DNA of 64,000 bases from Bradyrhizobium sp. ISRA430 (GTDB lineage Bacteria > Pseudomonadota > Alphaproteobacteria > Rhizobiales > Xanthobacteraceae). Positions 41,341 through 51,029 of this stretch are shown here, one piece after another. The position numbers were made by a program, and so were the translations under genes. The notes under the pieces were generated by a model. It saw only the letters and a program-made list of their open reading frames with translations, was not told the origin of the DNA and made no database searches. How positions within the stretch are numbered: the stretch's first letter is position 1; every line of letters begins with the position of its first letter. The DNA is taken from contig NZ_CP094516.1 of the NCBI RefSeq assembly GCF_029909975.1, forward strand, positions 8,472,501 through 8,536,500, given 5' to 3'.

Positions 41341-42474
41341 TTGAGCGGCGATCCGAAGCTGGAGCGGATTGCCAAAGGCAATGCGCTGGCACTCTGCGCC
41401 ACCGGAACCTGGACCGCGAGCTTCGCGCCGGTCCTGGAGCGGATGGTGGCTGAGGCCGAGAAACTCGCCGGCAGCCCGCAGAGCATTTTCATCGACGTCT
41501 CCGAAGTCGCGAAACTCGACACCTTTGGTGCCTGGCTGATCGAGCGGCTGCGCCGCAGCCTCACGCAAGGTCCCGTCGAGGCGCAGATCGCAGGTCTGTC
41601 GGCGGACTATTCGAGCCTGGTCGACGAAGTGCGGCGGGTGAAGGCGACGCCGGTCGTCGAGACCGGCGCGGTCACGATCACCGGCATGCTGGAGCAGATC
41701 GGCCGGGCCGTGGCTGGTGTTGCCGGCACGGTAGCGGGCCTCGTCGACATGCTCGGCGCGGTGCTTGCGGCGAGCGGCCGCGTGCTGATCCACCCGCGAT
41801 CGCTCCGCCTGACCTCGACCGTGCATCATCTCGAGCAGGTCTGCTGGCGCGCGGTGCCGATCATCGTGCTGATCACCTTCCTGATCGGCTGCATCATCGC
41901 ACAGCAGGGCATCTTCCATTTCCGCAGGTTCGGCGCCGATATCTTCGTCGTCGACATGCTGGGCGTGCTGGTGCTGCGCGAGATCGGCGTCTTGCTGGTC
42001 GCGATCATGGTCGCGGGCCGTTCCGGCAGTGCCTACACCGCCGAGCTCGGCTCGATGAAGATGCGCGAGGAGATCGACGCGCTGCGGACTATGGGTTTTG
42101 ATCCGATCGAGGTCTTGGTGCTGCCGCGCATGCTGGCGCTGGTGCTGGCGCTGCCGATCCTCGCCTTTCTCGGCGCCATGGCGGCGCTCTATGGCGGCGG
42201 GCTGGTGGCGTGGCTCTATGGTGGCGTCGATCCCGAGGCCTTCCTCTTGCGCCTGCGCGACGCCATCTCGATCGACCATTTCATCGTCGGCATCGTGAAG
42301 GCGCCGGTGATGGCCGCCGTGATCGGCATCGTCGCCTGTGTCGAAGGGTTAGCTGTGCAGGGCAGCGCGGAATCGCTCGGGCAGCACACGACGTCGTCTG
42401 TGGTGAAGGGCATCTTCTTCGTCATCGTCATGGACGGCGTGTTCGCCATCTTCTTCGCATCGATCGGAATGTGA
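41341..42474 (+). CDS. mlaE: MlaE-family ABC lipid transporter permease with N-terminal STAS domain
   Basis: The 377-residue protein joins an N-terminal STAS (anti-sigma-antagonist-like) domain of about 110 residues to a MlaE permease domain. In the STAS part, FIDVSEVAKLDTFGAWLIE is recognisable. The permease part has five or six membrane helices and the conserved GRSGSAYTAELGSMKMREEIDAL loop. It is the membrane part of a retrograde or anterograde phospholipid transporter between inner and outer membranes. In Escherichia coli the STAS subunit is a separate protein (MlaB); here it is fused. It starts with TTG after GGGAGCGG and overlaps mlaF by TGATG. Confidence 0.88.
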   Translation: MSGDPKLERIAKGNALALCATGTWTASFAPVLERMVAEAEKLAGSPQSIFIDVSEVAKLDTFGAWLIERLRRSLTQGPVEAQIAGLSADYSSLVDEVRRVKATPVVETGAVTITGMLEQIGRAVAGVAGTVAGLVDMLGAVLAASGRVLIHPRSLRLTSTVHHLEQVCWRAVPIIVLITFLIGCIIAQQGIFHFRRFGADIFVVDMLGVLVLREIGVLLVAIMVAGRSGSAYTAELGSMKMREEIDALRTMGFDPIEVLVLPRMLALVLALPILAFLGAMAALYGGGLVAWLYGGVDPEAFLLRLRDAISIDHFIVGIVKAPVMAAVIGIVACVEGLAVQGSAESLGQHTTSSVVKGIFFVIVMDGVFAIFFASIGM

Positions 42475-43259
42475 TGATGGCGCAAGAAATCCAAACCGCG
42501 ATTCAAAATCCCATCATCCGCGTCCGCGACATCACCGTGCAGTTCGGCGCGACGCGCGTGCTCGACGGCCTCAATCTCGACGTCAAGCGCGGCGAGATCC
42601 TCGGCTTCGTCGGCCCGTCGGGCGCGGGCAAATCGGTGCTGACGCGCACCATCATCGGCCTCGTGCCGAAGGTCGCCGGCCGCATCGAGGTGTTCGGCGT
42701 CGATCTCGATGCGTCCGGCGGCGCAGAGCGCCGCGGCGTCGAACGGCGCTGGGGCGTGCTGTTTCAGCAGGGCGCGCTGTTCTCCTCGCTGACCGTACGG
42801 CAGAACATCCAGTTTCCGATGCGCGAATATCTGCGGGTGTCGCAGCGGCTGATGGACGAGATCACCATCGCCAAGCTCATCATGGTCGGCCTCAAGCCCG
42901 AGGTCGCCGAGCGCTTCCCGTCGGAGCTCTCCGGCGGCATGATCAAGCGCGTGGCGCTGGCGCGGGCGCTGTCGCTCGATCCGGACCTTGTCTTCCTGGA
43001 TGAGCCGACTTCTGGCCTCGATCCGATCGGCGCCGGCGATTTCGACGAGCTGGTCAGGACCCTGCAGCGTACTTTGGGCCTGACCGTTTTCATGGTAACC
43101 CACGACCTCGACAGCCTCTACACAGCCTGTGACCGCATCGCCGTTTTAGGGAACGGTAAGATCATTGCGGCAGGGTCGATGGCCGACATGCAGGCCTCGC
43201 AGCATCCCTGGCTGAGGCAGTATTTTCATGGCAAGCGCGCCCGCGCGGTCATGGGTTGA
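42474..43259 (+). CDS. mlaF: ABC transporter ATP-binding protein MlaF
   Basis: The 261-residue ATPase has Walker A GPSGAGKS at residues 47-54, signature LSGGMIKRVALARAL, Walker B LVFLDEPTSGLDP and the switch histidine in MVTHD. The variant signature with GMIKR is characteristic of MlaF-type ATPases. The ATG overlaps the mlaE stop (TGATG), with a second ATG immediately after. It energises lipid movement through MlaE. Confidence 0.92.
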   Translation: MMAQEIQTAIQNPIIRVRDITVQFGATRVLDGLNLDVKRGEILGFVGPSGAGKSVLTRTIIGLVPKVAGRIEVFGVDLDASGGAERRGVERRWGVLFQQGALFSSLTVRQNIQFPMREYLRVSQRLMDEITIAKLIMVGLKPEVAERFPSELSGGMIKRVALARALSLDPDLVFLDEPTSGLDPIGAGDFDELVRTLQRTLGLTVFMVTHDLDSLYTACDRIAVLGNGKIIAAGSMADMQASQHPWLRQYFHGKRARAVMG

Positions 43260-43275
43260 GTAGCCGGAGCACCTG

Positions 43276-44154
43276 ATGGAAACGCGGGCGAATTACGTAC
43301 TGATCGGGTCGTTCACGCTGGCGGTGATCGCCGCTGCGATCGGCTTCGTGCTGTGGTTTCAGTCGCTGCACACCACCAAGCAGCGCAGTCCCCTGCGTGT
43401 CGTGTTCGAGGGACCGGCGGCCGGCCTGCGCAATGGCGGTAGCGTCAACTTCAACGGTATCAGGGTAGGTGAAGTTGTTTCGGTGAAGCTGGACAACCCG
43501 CGGCGGGTTGTCGCACTCGCCATGGTCGAGAACAATGCCCCGATCCGCAAGGACACCCTGGTCGGCCTGGAATTCCAGGGTCTAACCGGCGTCGCCGCGA
43601 TCTCGCTCAAGGGCGGCGAGGAGGCCGCGCCCGCGCCGCCGCTCGACGAAGACGGCATCCCGACGCTGACGGCCGACCCGAACAAGCTCCAGGATGTCAC
43701 CGAGGCGATCCGCGGCACGCTCCAGAACATCAACAAGCTTGTCGCCGACAATCAGGAATCGGTGAAGAAGTCGCTGAGGAACCTCGAGACTTTCACCAAC
43801 TCGCTGGCGCGCAACTCCGAGAGGGTCGACGCCGTGATGGCCAAGGTCGACGGCGTGATGCTCAAGGCCGACAACCTCATGCTCGGCCTCAATACGCTCG
43901 CCGGCGGCAAGGACGGTGGCGAGCTATTCCAGGCGGTGAAGTCGATCCGCGAGCTCGCCGATGACTTCGACAAGCGCTCCGGTGCGCTGATGGCCGACGG
44001 CCGCCGCACACTCGGCGACATCAGTCGCGCCGTGAACAATTTCGACCGCAACCCCACGCGCGTGCTTTTCGGCGCCAGCAACAGCACGCAGGCCGCGCCG
44101 CCACCGGCCGAGCCGCCGAAGCCCACGTCTTCGAACGAGCGCCGGCGGCAGTAG
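43276..44154 (+). CDS. MlaD-family MCE domain protein
   Basis: The 292-residue protein has one N-terminal membrane helix (about residues 8-29) and a periplasmic MCE domain (about 40-115; VVFEGPAAGLRNGGSVNFNG). A long helical region follows, then a Pro/Ser-rich tail. It is the lipid-binding hexamer subunit of the MlaE-F-D transporter. It begins 16 bp after mlaF, completing the operon. No MlaC-like periplasmic carrier follows. The helical C-terminal half is longer than in Escherichia coli MlaD, like those of alphaproteobacterial and chloroplast TGD2-type relatives. Confidence 0.9.
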   Translation: METRANYVLIGSFTLAVIAAAIGFVLWFQSLHTTKQRSPLRVVFEGPAAGLRNGGSVNFNGIRVGEVVSVKLDNPRRVVALAMVENNAPIRKDTLVGLEFQGLTGVAAISLKGGEEAAPAPPLDEDGIPTLTADPNKLQDVTEAIRGTLQNINKLVADNQESVKKSLRNLETFTNSLARNSERVDAVMAKVDGVMLKADNLMLGLNTLAGGKDGGELFQAVKSIRELADDFDKRSGALMADGRRTLGDISRAVNNFDRNPTRVLFGASNSTQAAPPPAEPPKPTSSNERRRQ

Positions 44155-44282: not shown

Positions 44283-47200
44283 TCACCCCAACCGTCCCGC
44301 TGCATGTGCGAGCAGGGTGTAGACCAGACCCGTCTCCGAGGTGAGGTGGCTGCGCAGCTCCTGCGGGCCACGGCCGTCGCGGGCGACTTCGTCGAGCAGG
44401 CGTTCGAACTCCGCGATGTAGCGGTCGACCGTGCTCTTGAAGTTGCGGTCGGCGCGGTACTTGCGGGCGACCTCGTCGAAGGCCTTCTGGCCGGCGGGCG
44501 TATAGAGCCGCTTGGTGAAGGCCTTGTTCTCGCCGCGCTGATAGCGGTCCCACATCTCGGATGCGAGGTTGCGGTCCATCAGCCGGCCGATGTCGAGCGA
44601 CAGCGACTCCAGCGGATTGCCACCATTCTGCGGGGCCTGCGGCTGCTGCGGAGCCGGAGCACGGCCGCGCGGTGCCTCACGGCCCGCGGGGGCGGCAGGA
44701 CCGGTGTCGGCGCGGTTCAAGAGGTCCGACAGCCAGCCGTCACGGCCCTGGTCGTTGCCGGCGGGCGCGACCGGGGGAGCCTCGGGGCGGCGCGAGGCGG
44801 GCACGCCGAGGTCGGGCGGCGGCAGGGTCGAGGCGCTGGTGCTCTCGCGCATGCGCGTCTCGGTGCCGCGGCCGGCGACGGCTGCCAACATCGGCTCTTC
44901 CTGACGCTGGACCGTGGCGCGGCCTGTCGTCGTGACATCGAGACCGCGGCCGTGCTGCGCCACGATGCGGTTGAGCTCGGCGAGCGCCTCGATCTGGTCG
45001 ACGATCACCTTGCGCATCTGCGCGGTGCTCTCGGCGGCCTCCTGAGGCATCTCGAGCACACCGCGCCGCAGCTCGTTGCGGGTGGCTTCGAGCTCGTTGT
45101 GCATCTCGAACGCCATCTGCTTCATGCTGGAGACGAGGTTGGCGAACTTCTCGGTCGATTGCTTGAACATCGCATCCGCCTCGTCTGTGGTCTGGCGGTA
45201 GATGTCGTGCATGGCCTCGATGGTCTGCCGGTGTTCCTCTTCGGACGCGGACCGCACCGCCTCGAACTGGCGGGTGATCGCGGCCGAGCCGGCGCCGGCG
45301 GTCTCTGCCACGACGCGGGCGATGTCGCGGGCGCGCTCTTCGGCTGCGGCGAGCGATTCATCGAGCAGGCCGGTGAAGCGCGACAGCCGCTGGTCGAGAT
45401 CGGCCGTGCGCAGGTCGATCGTGGTGACGAGCGACTCCAGCGCCTGCTTGCGCTCGGCAAGCGAAGCGGTGGTGTTCTTGTTGCTCTGCTCGACAACGGT
45501 CGCGGCATCGACGAGCGCCTTGCCGTGAGCGTCGAACTGGGTCGACAGCTCGCCGAGATCCTGGAGCGCCTTCGTGGTCTTGGTGTTGAACACGTTGAGC
45601 TGCTCTTCCAGGTTCTGCGTCGCCGTGCCGTTGCGGGCGGTGACGTCGTTCATCGCCGAGACGAAGTCGGCGACGCGCGTCACCAGCGCCCGCTCGAGCG
45701 AGTTGAGGTTGTCGTGCGCCCCGGTCAGCACCTCCTGGAGGAGGATGTTGCCTTCGCGCAGCCGCTCGAACAGGGCCACCGTGTCGGTGCGCAGGATCTT
45801 GCTGGTCTCCTGCATCTCGGTGACCGCCGCGATCGAGACCTGGCGCGACTGGTCGATCGCGGAACGCGAGGCTTGCTCGAGGTCCTTGAGCGACTTGGCG
45901 ACCGCGCCAGTGGCGAGCTCGCTCGCCGCGTTGATGGTGCGCGCCACCTCGGAGCCGTTGCCCATCATCGCCTGCGAGAACGCCTGGCCGCGCGTCTCGA
46001 TCGACTTCAGCGCGTCCGACGTGACGCGGTCGATGTCGAGCGTGAGCTGACTGGCCTTCGAGCCGATCGCATCGATCAGCGCACCGCGCTTGGCGTCGAT
46101 CATGTTCGACAGGCGGTCGGCCTGCTGCTGCACGTAGGTGACGATCTCGTCGGTCTTGCCGGTCATAGCCTGGCCGAAGCTGCTGCTGGCGGCGAGCACT
46201 GAGCGCTCGACGTCGGCCGAGCTCGACTTGACTCGCGAGCTCGCCTCGTTGGAGGCGCTGATCAGCGCGTTCTGCGCGTTGAGCGCGCTGGTCTGGATGT
46301 CGTTGGTCGCGTTCGCGGTGGCCGCGCCGAGCGCACGCTCGATTTCGGTCGAGATCGTGCGGATCTGGCTGGCGGCGTCCGCCGACGTCGAGGTCAGGGA
46401 CGTCTGCGCTTCGCGCGCGCTGTTGAGGATCGTCGAGGCCGTGTCGGCGCCGACCGCGGTCAGCGTGCGCTCGATGTCCGTGGTCAGCGACTTGATCTGG
46501 CTTGCTGCGTCCGTCGAAGCGGAGATCAGCGTGCCTTGGGCCTCGCGCACGCCGCTCGTGAGCGCCTCGATGGTAGCGCCGCCGGCGGTCGCCAGCGCGC
46601 GCTGCATCTCGGCCGCGAGCGAGCGGACCTGGCCGGTCTGCTCGACCGAGACAGCGAGCAGGGTGCTCTGGGCGTCGCGGGCGCTGGCCGTGATCGTTTC
46701 GGCCGTCATCTGGCCGGCCTGCGAGAGCGAACGATGCACCTCGGCTGCGAGCGACTTGACCTGGTTTGCCGCATCCGAGGACGCCGTGACCAGCGTGGTC
46801 TGGGCCTCGCGGGCGCCGGCCGTGATGGTCTCGGCCGTCGAGGTACCCGCCATCGAGAGCGAGCGCTGCACGTCCGAGGACAGCGCTTTGATCTGATTGG
46901 CGGTCTCGGTCGAAGCCGCGATCAGCGTGCCCTGCGCATCACGCGCACCGGCGGTGATCGCCTCGGCCGTGGTGGCACCGGCCATCGACAGCGAGTGCTG
47001 CACGTCGGCGGTGAGCGTCTTGACATGGGTCGCCGCATCCGCGGAGGCGGTGACGAGCGTGGTCTGCACCTCACGGGCGCCGGCCAGGATCGAGGCGGCC
47101 GTCGCCGATCCCGCTGCCGACAGGGTGCGCTCGATGTCGGCCGACAGGGCCTTGATCTGGTTCGATGCTTCGCCCGACGCCCCGACCAGGGTCGACTGCG

Positions 47201-49823
47201 CCTCACGGGCGCTGGCCAGGATCGAGTTCGCGGCGCCCGTGCCGACCGCAGTCAGCGCGCGCTCGACCTCGGCCGAGGTCAGATTGAGCTGCGCATTGAC
47301 CTCGGAGGAGACCGTCATCAGCGACTGCTGGGCGGCGCGCGCGCCGGTCTGGATCGTCTCGCTGGTGTTGACCACGAGGTTGGTGAGCGAGCGCTCGGCG
47401 TCCTCGACATGCGAGCGGATCGCGGTCGAGATCATCTCGGAGCGTGACATCAGGTCTTCGCTGGCCTGGCGTCCGCTGCTCTCGATGCGGCCGGCAACGG
47501 CCTCGACACGCGAGCCGAGCAGGTCCTCGAACTGCGCCACGCGCACGTCGATGTCGTTGGCGACCGAGCCGACCTTGGCCTCGATGGCCTGGTGGATCTC
47601 CTGGAAGCGCGCCGTGACCGTGTCGGTCAGGTGCAGGCTGCGGCCGTCGATGGTCTCGGTGACGCCGGCGATGCGGCGGTCGACCGCCTCGATCGCCTGC
47701 GCTGTGCCGTCCGTGAGCGTCGAGGTCAGGAGGGTGAGGCGCGTGTCGATCGACTGCACGGCCTGCGATGCGCCGTTCGTCAGCGTCGCCGTCAGATGGG
47801 TGAGGCGGGCATCGATCGACTGGATCGTCTGCGAGGCGCCATCCGTGAGCGACGTCGTGAGGTGGGTGAGGCGGGAGTCGATCGATTGGATCGCCTGTGT
47901 GGCGCCGTCGGTCAGCGACGTCGCCAGTGTGTTGAGACGTGCGTCGATGGTCTCGGTGACGGATTTCGCGCGCGCATCGAACGACTGTTCGAGGACGCCG
48001 ACGCGGCCGCCGAACTGCTCGTCGAAGGTCTTGATGTGGCCCTCGATCGACGAGTCGAGGTTGGTGACGCGTTCGCCCAGCGTGGTTTCGAACTGCACCA
48101 GGCGCTGATCCAGCGCCGCGGTGATCTGGCCGCCGTTCGAGGTGAGGCGGGTGTCGAAGTTCTCGACGTACGTCTTCAGCGTTTCGGCAATGTCCTGCGT
48201 GCGCTGACCCATGCGATCGACGATCTCGCCGCCGAACGTCTTCACGGTGCGGTCGAACTCGGAGATGTGGCGCGTGATCAGCGCCCCCAGCGTGCCGGAG
48301 TCGCGGGCGAACTTCTCGACCAGCTCGGCACCCTGGTTCTTCACCAGCTCGTCGAATGCGCTCATCTGCAGCGACAGCGAGTCATGCGCGGTCTCGGTCT
48401 GGCTCACCACCTTGGCGACCAGCGTGTTCACGGTGGCGTCGAGCGCCTCGCTGGCCTTATCGCCGGAGCTCATGATCTGGCCGGCCAGCCGGTTGCCGGC
48501 GTCGTCGATCTTGGCGGAGAGGTCGTTGCTGCGCAGCTCGAGTTCGAGCAGCAGCGAGTCGGACGAATTCTTCAGGGAGTCGTGCACCTGCTCAGTACGC
48601 TCGGAGATGCCATCGACGATCGCGGCGGAGCGCTGCTCGAACTCGCCGGTGATGCGGTCAATGCGCTCGTTCAGCATTTCGTGGACGCGGTCGGCGAGGT
48701 CGACGAACTCATCGTGGACGTGGCCGGTCTTGAAGTTGAGGCTGGTAGTCAGCCGCTCGCTGGCGTCGAGCACGGCGCGCGTGGTCTCGTTGCTGGCCTC
48801 TTCGAGGCGGTCGAGCAGGTCGCCGCCGCGCTCGCCGAGCGCCAGGATCATGTTGTCGCCCGCGTTGCTGAGCGCCTGGGTGATATGGGCGCCGCGCTCT
48901 TCCAGCGCGCCGGTGATGCTCTTGGCGACCTCGTCGACGCGCGAGGCGATCGCATCGGAGATCAGCGCAATGTCGTGGCGCAGGTCGATCTGTACGCCCG
49001 AGATGGCGCTGCGGACTTGCTCGGCCTGGCCGACCAGGTTGTCGCGCTGGTGGGCGATGTCCTGAAGCAGGGCTCGGATGCGCACTTCATTGTCGGAATA
49101 GGCGCGTTCGAGCGCCGCGACTTCGTTCGCGACCAGCGTTTCGAGCTCGCCGGCGCGCGCGATCGCGCGCTCGATACCGTCGCCCATGGCGGCGACTTCG
49201 CGGCGGATCGCCTGGCCGACGGTGACCATCGAATCGGAGGCCGAGCCTTCCGGCTCGGAGAAGCGCATCGCCACTTGTGCCATGGCCTGCGCGATCATGC
49301 GCATCTCCTGGCCGCGCCAGACGAGGCTCGCGAGGAAGTAGAACAGCATGATGGGCGCGAAGAACATCGCGATCAGGCCGGCGATGACCAGCACGCCGCC
49401 GCTCTGGCCCATGGCAGCCTGGATCGAGGGCAGGAAGCCGACGCTCAGCGCGGCGCAGGCAGCGAGCCAGATGCCGGCGAACACGGTCGCGAAGGTGTAC
49501 ACGCTGCGGGCGGGGCGGCCCTTCTGCAGTGCCTGGAGCAACTGGCCGATGGTCTCGCGGTCGTCGTTGGCGGCGCGGTGCGAGGGGCGAGGCTCCTCGA
49601 TCGACTCGAACACCGCCCGCTCGTTGGCGGCAGACCGCGGCTCGAAAGCGGGATCGTCGAACACGGGAGGTGCGGGCGGCGCCACCGGAGGCACCGCGTC
49701 GTTGCGCGCTGCCGATGCAGCGCGGCTGGTGTCCGCAGCGGTGTCGCTGATGTTCAGGGCTTCCTGGATCGCAGAAAGTGCCACTTCAGTTGGGTCTTTG
49801 ACCTTTTTGGGAGTGTTCGCCAT
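44283..49823 (-). CDS. Giant coiled-coil, apolipoprotein-like polar growth protein (GPR/RgsE/TipN-like)
   Basis: This 1,846-residue protein has a disordered Pro/Ala-rich N-terminus (1-100) and two membrane helices (about 109-130 and 143-168). The rest is almost entirely helical. Within it, four 22-residue repeats (units like RLTHLTTSLTDGA, about residues 625-715) are followed by about nine 44-residue repeats (units like AREAQTTLV...DIERTL, about 825-1210). The tail (1600-1846) is first Pro/Gly-rich, then ordered. The 11/22-residue periodicity is that of apolipoprotein A/E domains. Architecture and size match the growth pole ring protein of Agrobacterium and RgsE of Sinorhizobium, which organise unipolar growth. 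Homology is inferred from architecture, not alignment. The promoter carries a CtrA box. Confidence 0.8.
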   Translation of the reverse strand: MANTPKKVKDPTEVALSAIQEALNISDTAADTSRAASAARNDAVPPVAPPAPPVFDDPAFEPRSAANERAVFESIEEPRPSHRAANDDRETIGQLLQALQKGRPARSVYTFATVFAGIWLAACAALSVGFLPSIQAAMGQSGGVLVIAGLIAMFFAPIMLFYFLASLVWRGQEMRMIAQAMAQVAMRFSEPEGSASDSMVTVGQAIRREVAAMGDGIERAIARAGELETLVANEVAALERAYSDNEVRIRALLQDIAHQRDNLVGQAEQVRSAISGVQIDLRHDIALISDAIASRVDEVAKSITGALEERGAHITQALSNAGDNMILALGERGGDLLDRLEEASNETTRAVLDASERLTTSLNFKTGHVHDEFVDLADRVHEMLNERIDRITGEFEQRSAAIVDGISERTEQVHDSLKNSSDSLLLELELRSNDLSAKIDDAGNRLAGQIMSSGDKASEALDATVNTLVAKVVSQTETAHDSLSLQMSAFDELVKNQGAELVEKFARDSGTLGALITRHISEFDRTVKTFGGEIVDRMGQRTQDIAETLKTYVENFDTRLTSNGGQITAALDQRLVQFETTLGERVTNLDSSIEGHIKTFDEQFGGRVGVLEQSFDARAKSVTETIDARLNTLATSLTDGATQAIQSIDSRLTHLTTSLTDGASQTIQSIDARLTHLTATLTNGASQAVQSIDTRLTLLTSTLTDGTAQAIEAVDRRIAGVTETIDGRSLHLTDTVTARFQEIHQAIEAKVGSVANDIDVRVAQFEDLLGSRVEAVAGRIESSGRQASEDLMSRSEMISTAIRSHVEDAERSLTNLVVNTSETIQTGARAAQQSLMTVSSEVNAQLNLTSAEVERALTAVGTGAANSILASAREAQSTLVGASGEASNQIKALSADIERTLSAAGSATAASILAGAREVQTTLVTASADAATHVKTLTADVQHSLSMAGATTAEAITAGARDAQGTLIAASTETANQIKALSSDVQRSLSMAGTSTAETITAGAREAQTTLVTASSDAANQVKSLAAEVHRSLSQAGQMTAETITASARDAQSTLLAVSVEQTGQVRSLAAEMQRALATAGGATIEALTSGVREAQGTLISASTDAASQIKSLTTDIERTLTAVGADTASTILNSAREAQTSLTSTSADAASQIRTISTEIERALGAATANATNDIQTSALNAQNALISASNEASSRVKSSSADVERSVLAASSSFGQAMTGKTDEIVTYVQQQADRLSNMIDAKRGALIDAIGSKASQLTLDIDRVTSDALKSIETRGQAFSQAMMGNGSEVARTINAASELATGAVAKSLKDLEQASRSAIDQSRQVSIAAVTEMQETSKILRTDTVALFERLREGNILLQEVLTGAHDNLNSLERALVTRVADFVSAMNDVTARNGTATQNLEEQLNVFNTKTTKALQDLGELSTQFDAHGKALVDAATVVEQSNKNTTASLAERKQALESLVTTIDLRTADLDQRLSRFTGLLDESLAAAEERARDIARVVAETAGAGSAAITRQFEAVRSASEEEHRQTIEAMHDIYRQTTDEADAMFKQSTEKFANLVSSMKQMAFEMHNELEATRNELRRGVLEMPQEAAESTAQMRKVIVDQIEALAELNRIVAQHGRGLDVTTTGRATVQRQEEPMLAAVAGRGTETRMRESTSASTLPPPDLGVPASRRPEAPPVAPAGNDQGRDGWLSDLLNRADTGPAAPAGREAPRGRAPAPQQPQAPQNGGNPLESLSLDIGRLMDRNLASEMWDRYQRGENKAFTKRLYTPAGQKAFDEVARKYRADRNFKSTVDRYIAEFERLLDEVARDGRGPQELRSHLTSETGLVYTLLAHAAGRLG
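46190..47340 (-). repeat. Tandem 132-bp coding repeats within the coiled-coil gene
   Basis: About nine degenerate 132-bp units encode 44 residues each (four 11-residue turns), with the recurring core AREAQ-x-TL, then A-x-Q-I-K-x-L, then DIERTL and a small-residue linker. The copies have diverged, so the array is old and under coding constraint. Confidence 0.75.
47680..47950 (-). repeat. Tandem 66-bp coding repeats (22-residue, apolipoprotein-like)
   Basis: Four consecutive 22-residue units of the form ID-x-RLTHLTTSLTDGA-x-Q are visible at protein residues of about 625-715. The period equals two 11-residue helical turns, as in exchangeable apolipoproteins. Confidence 0.75.
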
Positions 49824-49999
49824 GTTCAGTCTGAGCCCTCGTTACTTGTCACGCCCCCCGCGAGCCCCGCGCGCCACGCAAGCCCACAGACCGGATCATG
49901 CCGCTTATGCGGATCTCCGAGCCGTCCCCACCCGAACGGCTTGTCCGCTAATTTCCGCAACATCCTATTGGCAGAGCGTCGCGAATGAAATGCCCGCGA

Positions 50000-50014
50000 T
50001 TAAGACATTCTTAA
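50000..50014. promoter_or_regulatory. CtrA box TTAA-N7-TTAA
   Basis: TTAAGACATTCTTAA is a perfect full CtrA site. Another TTAA follows at 50021, giving an overlapping TTAA-N6-TTAA. It lies about 180 bp upstream of the giant coiled-coil gene and about 200 bp upstream of the Hpt gene. Confidence 0.7.
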
Positions 50015-50140
50015 TCATCGTTAACAGGATCGGGCCGTAACGCCTTAGCACTAAATGGAATTTTCCACGGAACTCGGCCGATTGCGGCAACTTTTCGTCA
50101 ATAAACGGGCAGAATTACGTAAAGCTGTCCAAACACTTCG

Positions 50141-50148
50141 TTAACCAT
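50141..50148 (+). promoter_or_regulatory. CtrA half-site TTAACCAT
   Basis: TTAACCAT, the extended half-site common in CtrA-controlled promoters of alphaproteobacteria, lies 72 bp upstream of the chosen Hpt start. With the full box at 50000 it makes a second site in the same intergenic region. Confidence 0.55.
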
Positions 50149-50220
50149 TTCCATGCTTGGGTGGAGCAAAGCTCGCCGCCCATCGGCGGAGCGCCGCGCG
50201 ATGCCGGGGGGCCTGTCGCC

Positions 50221-50595
50221 ATGATGCCTGACCTGCAACGGATGGACTGGATGCCCTCGCCGCCGCTTGCACCTCTCGACAGCCCCCTTGATCTCGACCA
50301 TCTCGCGCGCATGACCCTCGGCGATGCCGGGCTGGAACAGGAAGTGCTCGCGATGTTCGCCGAGCAGTCGGTCCGGCTGATCGCCGCGATGTCGGCCGTG
50401 CCGGCCGACGCCGCTGTGCTCGCACACAAGCTTAAAGGGTCCGCGCGCGGGGTCGGTGCCTTTGCGGTGGCCGATGCCGCGGCGAGCCTCGAGACCGCGA
50501 TCCGGACCGGCGACAACCCGTCCCGCGCCTTCGCCGCGCTGAAGGAGGCGGTGGCCGAGGTCCGTGCCGTCATCGCGACGATCCTGAAGGCCTGA
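50221..50595 (+). CDS. Hpt (histidine phosphotransfer) domain protein
   Basis: The 124-residue protein is mostly a single four-helix Hpt domain. The phosphorylatable histidine is H69 in AHKLKGSARGVGAF, with the H-x-x-K-G motif intact. It would relay phosphate between receiver domains of sensor kinases and response regulators. The ATG at 50221 has GGGGGG about nine bases upstream; a GTG at 50161 would give 144 residues but lacks a ribosome site. It is divergent from the polar-growth gene and shares its CtrA-type promoter region. Partner kinases are not in the window. Confidence 0.85.
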   Translation: MMPDLQRMDWMPSPPLAPLDSPLDLDHLARMTLGDAGLEQEVLAMFAEQSVRLIAAMSAVPADAAVLAHKLKGSARGVGAFAVADAAASLETAIRTGDNPSRAFAALKEAVAEVRAVIATILKA

Positions 50596-50708: not shown

Positions 50709-51029
50709 ATGGCCAAGATTCACTTCATCGACCACAAGGGCGAAACCCGCACGGTGGACATCGAGAACGGCGCGACCGTGATGGAAGCCGCCATCCGCAA
50801 CAGCATTCCCGGGATCGAGGCCGAATGCGGCGGCGCCTGCGCCTGCGCCACCTGCCATGTCTATGTCGATGAAGCCTGGCGCGAGAAGGTCGGCAGCCCG
50901 ACGCCGATGGAAGAGGACATGCTCGACTTCGGCTTCGACGTGCGTCCGAACTCGCGCCTGTCCTGTCAGATCAAGGTGAGCGACGAACTCGACGGGCTCG
51001 TGGTGTCGACGCCGGAACGCCAGGCCTGA
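50709..51029 (+). CDS. 2Fe-2S ferredoxin (adrenodoxin/putidaredoxin type)
   Basis: The 106-residue electron carrier has the vertebrate-type cluster motif C-x5-C-x2-C in [14 protein letters not shown] (an extra cysteine lies between the first and second ligands) and the fourth ligand in [18 protein letters not shown] is the acidic partner-binding helix of adrenodoxin-like ferredoxins. The ferredoxin reductase 700 bp downstream is a likely partner. It could support cytochrome P450s, iron-sulfur assembly or other oxygenases. Confidence 0.92.

Follow-up and report, generated by a model that had tools for sequence, protein, structure and literature searches.

A conserved three-box CtrA-type array between a gpr/rgsE-family gene and a divergent Hpt gene in Bradyrhizobium

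A giant gene of the gpr/rgsE family and a short gene encoding an Hpt-domain protein are transcribed away from each other in the stretch of Bradyrhizobium sp. ISRA430 DNA analyzed in this study, which has a length of 64 kb and is referred to as the window. The gap between the two genes possesses TTAA boxes and promoter-like elements, and the features of the locus are the following.

44283-49823, minus strand: gpr/rgsE-family gene, 1846 aa, with an N-terminal hydrophobic pair, apolipoprotein-type repeats and a conserved C-terminus
49824-50220: intergenic gap of 397 bp, divergent, between minus-strand gpr and plus-strand hpt
49962..49967, minus strand: TAGGAT, conserved, predicted -10 of gpr, 32 nt from the array
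49984..49990, minus strand: TTTCATT, conserved element 9 nt from the array, a weak -35 or an alternative -10
50000..50014, no strand assigned: perfect TTAA-N7-TTAA, a full CtrA-type site, kept in all same-genus loci
50000..50024, minus strand: three-box array TTAA-N6-TTAA-N7-TTAA, reading TTAACGATGATTAAGAATGTCTTAA on the gpr strand, predicted CtrA operator of gpr
50020..50025, no strand assigned: GTTAAC box, 10 bp from the middle box and within the 15-mer GTTAACGATGATTAA
50141..50148, plus strand: TTAACCAT half-site ahead of hpt, with the core GTTAA on the gpr strand
50221-50595, plus strand: hpt, Hpt-domain protein of 124 aa, with HKLKGSARGVGA around the likely phospho-histidine

The giant size, the N-terminal hydrophobic pair, the apolipoprotein-type repeats and the conserved C-terminus are shared with GPR of Agrobacterium (Atu1348) and RgsE of Sinorhizobium (SMc00190), although the protein is shorter, with 1846 aa versus 2,115 aa in GPR and 2,089 aa in RgsE (PMC8262873, PMC7327166). 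Seven stretches match the apolipoprotein repeat family (PF01442, E 1.9e-57). Hydrophobic segments were found within residues 107-138 and 136-170 using 19-residue hydropathy windows, and two N-terminal membrane helices are predicted from them. The N-terminus of the 1846-aa protein has a match in 195 of the 199 genomes of the order, almost always one per genome. A BLASTP comparison with a 2237-aa homolog from a different family of the order gives an alignment (4e-64) that runs mostly along the repeats and includes the C-terminal region. The few named matches of this homolog include Pseudochrobactrum, Liberibacter, one Beijerinckiaceae and one Hyphomicrobiales assembly (33 hits, with 8000 candidates scored), and we infer that its source genome is Rhizobiaceae-type. 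As judged from these similarities, the 1846-aa protein is a member of the GPR/RgsE family, homologous to the Rhizobiaceae-type protein along its length. The order-wide N-terminal matches, the repeats and the alignment to the homolog thus bear out the initial annotation, which had described a GPR/RgsE-like protein next to an Hpt protein. The latter possesses a genuine Hpt domain (PF01627, 3.7e-9), whose HKLKGSARGVGA motif was judged by eye in the translation.

Reading along the gpr strand, the array extends from 50024 to 50000; TTTCATT comes 9 nt beyond it, and another 16 nt separate TTTCATT from TAGGAT. The TTAA at 50021 had initially been listed only as an additional TTAA; its position is right, and since it lies N6 from the middle box, it belongs to an array of three boxes, with periods of 10 and 11 bp. 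The perfect TTAA-N7-TTAA (N7 site) at 50000-50014 and the TTAACCAT half-site at 50141 are present just as they had been described, and each is a single copy in the 64-kb window, where shuffled sequences give means of 0.02 (100 dinucleotide shuffles) and 0.20, respectively. Four of the 19 TTAA words of the window fall in the 397-bp gap, and no TTAA pairs of the window other than the N7 and N6 pairs of the array have a spacing between N3 and N11. The whole genome contains 48 N7 sites versus 36 matches to a backward control pattern, so that a bare N7 match is weak evidence, and it is the conservation across loci that places the array above chance. The rarity of the triple array was dropped as an argument, as the genome has three copies of it versus two of its backward control. 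No consensus sigma-70 promoter was found in the gap by a simple scan, and no structured RNA was matched there in Rfam up to E 0.1. Control through GANTC (CcrM) was also considered and rejected, with zero GANTC in the gap of the window.

A total of 63 same-genus loci were compared, including 59 from 60 genomes of the genus (the genome of the window among them) and four from an order-wide search; one genome was left out because its contig starts inside the gene. The N7 site is present in all 63 loci, with a shuffle expectation of 0.44, and the triple array in 61, the two exceptions displaying an extra, partly degenerate repeat. The control patterns N5, N8 and AATT-N7-AATT were each found in 0 of 63. 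The most conserved 15-mer is GTTAACGATGATTAA, present in 61 of the 63 loci. Mean pairwise identity is 0.728 over the 460-bp region; column conservation reaches 0.965 in the array and 0.912 in the block from TTTC to TAGGAT, and falls to 0.705 and 0.752 in the two outer stretches of the gap. The distance between array and TAGGAT is 32 nt in all 61 genus triples. A named set from another collection, consisting of the best 80 of 491 confirmed loci, is mostly Bradyrhizobium, with three Rhodopseudomonas and one Tardiphaga, and some of its members look like strains of the 63-locus set. Among these best 80 of 491, the N7 site is found in 80, the triple in 78, and the 32-nt spacing to TAGGAT in all 78 triples. 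The comparison of orthologous promoters proposed with the initial annotation, in which absence from close relatives would have refuted the interpretation, comes out in its favor, with the N7 site kept in both sets, the three Rhodopseudomonas included. Four boxes at steps of 10, 10 and 11 bp occur in loci L033, L085 and L074, and with a degenerate box in L071 and L101, as if the array had grown by tandem duplication.

For the other genera of the family, 46 loci were taken from 83 matched ones, with preference for best matches and clean starts. The N6 pair is present in 43 of the 46 and the N7 pair in 29, which indicates that the GTTAACGATGATTAA part is more widely kept than the strict N7 part; a triple is found in 41 when TTA[AC] is allowed as the last box. 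The set for other families comprises 54 of 188 matched loci, 53 of them with sufficient upstream DNA. Locus L162 was left out of these counts for too little upstream DNA, and two loci stayed in although their gene starts differ from the ones used, by 51 nt in the upstream direction for L163 (hand count) and, as judged by similarity, also for L161. Outside the family, the strict N7 site occurs in 8 of 53 loci, and TTAAC[CG]A in 33 of 53 (expected 2.4). With one locus per other family (n=23), 20 loci have TTAAC (expected 6.7) and 8 have N7 (expected 0.2). The strict N7 form is not order-wide. Among the Rhizobiaceae-type loci with upstream DNA (n=3), L160 possesses the N7 site, and the other two have half-sites and TTAA-N8-TTAA. 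Families f29 and f41 count against CtrA control, as 10 of their 12 loci have gpr promoters without any TTAA in 450 bp (L037, L038, L041, L043, L044, L047-L049, L052 and L057). The f29 loci retain an ATTAGGAT element, and since their promoters are free of TTAA yet carry this element, CtrA control may have been lost there with the core promoter kept.

The divergent arrangement itself is widespread. All 63 genus loci have an Hpt gene divergently upstream of gpr, and so do 44 of the 46 loci of the family's other genera and 42 of the 54 other-family loci, with upstream DNA mostly limited to 1.5 kb in these counts. Because the gap is divergent, with the array at a median distance of 192 from the hpt start and 203 from the gpr start (101 loci), the array could also be a CtrA site that represses or that works mainly for hpt, gpr being a mere neighbor. 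This reading is unlikely. It is opposed by the spacing to TAGGAT on the gpr side, which is invariant in the genus triples, and by the family members with gaps of 787-983 bp (L131, L132, L135 and L136), where the array still lies about 200 bp from gpr, even with the Hpt gene almost 1 kb off. The fixed TAGGAT spacing and the persistence near gpr in longer gaps are the reasons why we assign the array to gpr. Also against the reading, hpt has a separate half-site. All 63 genus loci keep GTTAA on the hpt side, with a median distance to the hpt start of 72 nt (5-95%: 68-77) that varies less than the distance to gpr; the full TTAACCAT form is seen in only 33 of the 63. The half-site near hpt is often absent from the long-gap loci. 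The initial view that CtrA-type sites precede both genes is thereby retained and refined, in that the array goes with gpr and hpt has its own half-site.

CtrA is the master cell-cycle regulator. Its ortholog is encoded in the genome of the window at G000:C1:7777829-7778506 (NF045991, 422 bits, cut-off 350) and is 84% identical to the CtrA query sequence used; TTAACCAT lies about 100 nt upstream of the ctrA start. The 47 other N7 sites of the genome were mapped, 38 of them outside any ORF according to a simple ORF caller, and 49 of the 55 distinct genes adjoining N7 sites were scanned for families. The products of these genes include a flagellin, MinC, an AmiC-like amidase, an RlpA-like protein, three outer-membrane barrels and a HisKA kinase, together with many that are unrelated or without a family match. 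The kinase matches the TorS, DivJ and PdhS models, all below their cut-offs. Retention of the N7 site was followed at 30 loci for each of five such genes, own genome included, among the 31 genomes searched, with the number of loci capped at 30. The minC gene retains the site in 30 of 30 loci and the AmiC-like amidase gene in 24 of 30. Two sites chosen as negative controls, before an aminotransferase (L193) and a GNAT gene (L194), were likewise kept in 30 of 30 each. The site of an exonuclease (L192), kept in 2 of 30, behaves as a chance site and is the sole negative control that stands. With four of the five tested non-gpr sites kept in at least 24 of 30 loci, the motif is supported as the mark of a regulon.

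The two retained sites that had been chosen as controls differ in position. At L193 (G000:C1:5502010), an identical TTAATCGCGTCTTAA on the strand of the gene is located about 62-65 bp before the class I/II aminotransferase in nearly all of the 30 genus loci, with one locus at 77, and this site looks like a real target. At L194 (G000:C1:5571183), the N7 site is 23-24 bp before the start of the GNAT acetyltransferase in 30 of 30 genus loci; being so near the start codon, it may be a repressor site or serve another gene. The genome possesses only two other three-box TTAA arrays, at G000:C1:134-159 and G000:C1:8560132-8560156 (loci L165 and L209). One of the two ends 84 bp before a flagellin gene, and the other is situated between a gene that looks flagellar by eye and a gene of 261 aa for which the limits used gave no family match.

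Direct repeats bound by OmpR-family regulators typically have such a 10- and 11-bp period, and another member of this family could bind the array instead of CtrA. The envelope regulator CenR would be an example, as it governs envelope and division genes and its TGA-N8-TGA is predicted also in Rhodopseudomonas (PMC9275681). We consider such a substitution very improbable. Only 4 of the 63 genus loci have TGA-N8-TGA close to the array, to which the 46 family loci add 9 locus-strand cases, whereas all 63 have the CtrA motif. CenR was rejected as the regulator because its direct repeat is not conserved here. Very little weight is also given to the conservation being that of a promoter or DNA-shape element, or of MucR-type binding to AT-rich steps, without CtrA: the conserved block does carry the promoter-like TTTC-TT and TAGGAT, and MucR is reported on CtrA target promoters in Caulobacter (PMC4287350), but the exact 10- and 11-bp TTAA spacing is kept, the control patterns being absent from all 63 loci, and where a fourth box is present, degenerate in some loci, the period is unchanged (L033, L074, L071 and L101).

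Direct control of gpr by CtrA is the reading we hold to be probable; it is a strong prediction from sequence and not a demonstrated fact. Under it, CtrA would control a divergent promoter region in the gap between gpr and hpt. The phosphorylated form of CtrA is predicted to bind cooperatively to the three TTAA boxes at 50000-50024, whose 10- and 11-bp steps would place them along the same face of the helix, an arrangement in keeping with tandem binding by an OmpR-family regulator. Bound there, it would regulate, and most likely activate, a gpr promoter with TAGGAT as the -10. Transcription of gpr would then peak when CtrA is high, in predivisional cells, and supply the scaffold for the growth poles that division soon creates, while the half-site at 50141 may give CtrA a second, weaker hold on hpt. 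Whether CtrA activates or represses is the least certain step of the proposal. A hand count that sets the -10 hexamer at -12 to -7 puts the beginning of the N7 site near -59 with TAGGAT as the -10 and near -36 with TTTCAT in that role. The invariance of TAGGAT favors the placement at -59, and TTTCAT as the -10 appears to fit the conservation less well. Activation is accordingly proposed from just upstream of a weak promoter. Full CtrA sites in Caulobacter usually start near -35 and activate (PMC4287350), and a position at -59, away from the -35, would count against the CtrA model.

The full CtrA motif is TTAA-N7-TTAA in Caulobacter (PMC4287350) and TTAA-N7-TTAAC in Hyphomonas (PMC7200025). The full motif, the TTAAC type of half-site, an encoded regulator, and motifs at flagellin and minC are common to these systems and the genome studied here. 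Two boxes are present in Caulobacter and Hyphomonas versus three here (N6 plus N7, and four in some relatives), and the site over the -35 in those promoters contrasts with an N7 site upstream of the likely -35, in front of a growth-pole scaffold as target. The three-box layout is unusual. In S. meliloti, the direct CtrA regulon comprises 54 genes, with flaA and divJ named (PMC4433202); in our genome the motif precedes a flagellin gene and the HisKA kinase gene with the sub-cut-off DivJ match. The minCDE genes are among those changed on ctrA depletion in S. meliloti (as cited in PMC9022086). The main text on this regulon (PMC4433202) names neither SMc00190 (rgsE) nor Rgs proteins, and of the three Rhizobiaceae-type gpr promoters two lack the N7 site and one has it; both points count against the CtrA model. 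The available text of PMC8262873 and PMC7327166 reports no CtrA control of GPR or RgsE, and the main text on S. meliloti RgsE does not contain the word CtrA. A paper of 2024 applied the same two motifs in silico to LD-transpeptidase genes of Agrobacterium and states that CtrA sites had not been identified in the species studied (PMC11527210). In the literature covered, with subscription papers and supplements outside its scope, we found no statement of CtrA controlling gpr or rgsE.

GPR in Agrobacterium and RgsE in Sinorhizobium are reported to localize to the growing pole and organize it (PMC8262873, PMC7327166). Their loss or excess alters cell shape, and excess leads to extra poles or branches (PMC7327166, PMC8262873), so that when and how strongly gpr is expressed should be important. 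The conserved array suggests that the building of a new growth pole may be timed directly by the cell cycle. A CtrA-type array conserved in front of gpr would represent a direct and easily testable link from the master regulator to the pole scaffold, and the array region points to the divergent Hpt protein as a possible partner. More tentatively, and with some doubt on our side, CtrA control of the growth-pole organizer might be ancestral to Hyphomicrobiales, surviving as half-sites in most families, reinforced in the Bradyrhizobium family to a cooperative array of three or four boxes, and lost from a few lineages; gpr with its divergent Hpt gene would then be where the timing of a new growth pole is set by the cell-cycle regulator.

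Other genes are found close by on both sides. Downstream of hpt, and on its strand, positions 50709-51029 of the window encode a 2Fe-2S ferredoxin. Just downstream of gpr and convergent with it, the region 42210-44154 encodes an ABC ATPase (MlaF-like, below the model cut-off) and an MlaD/MCE-domain protein, a lipid-transport neighbor of the apolipoprotein-repeat protein.
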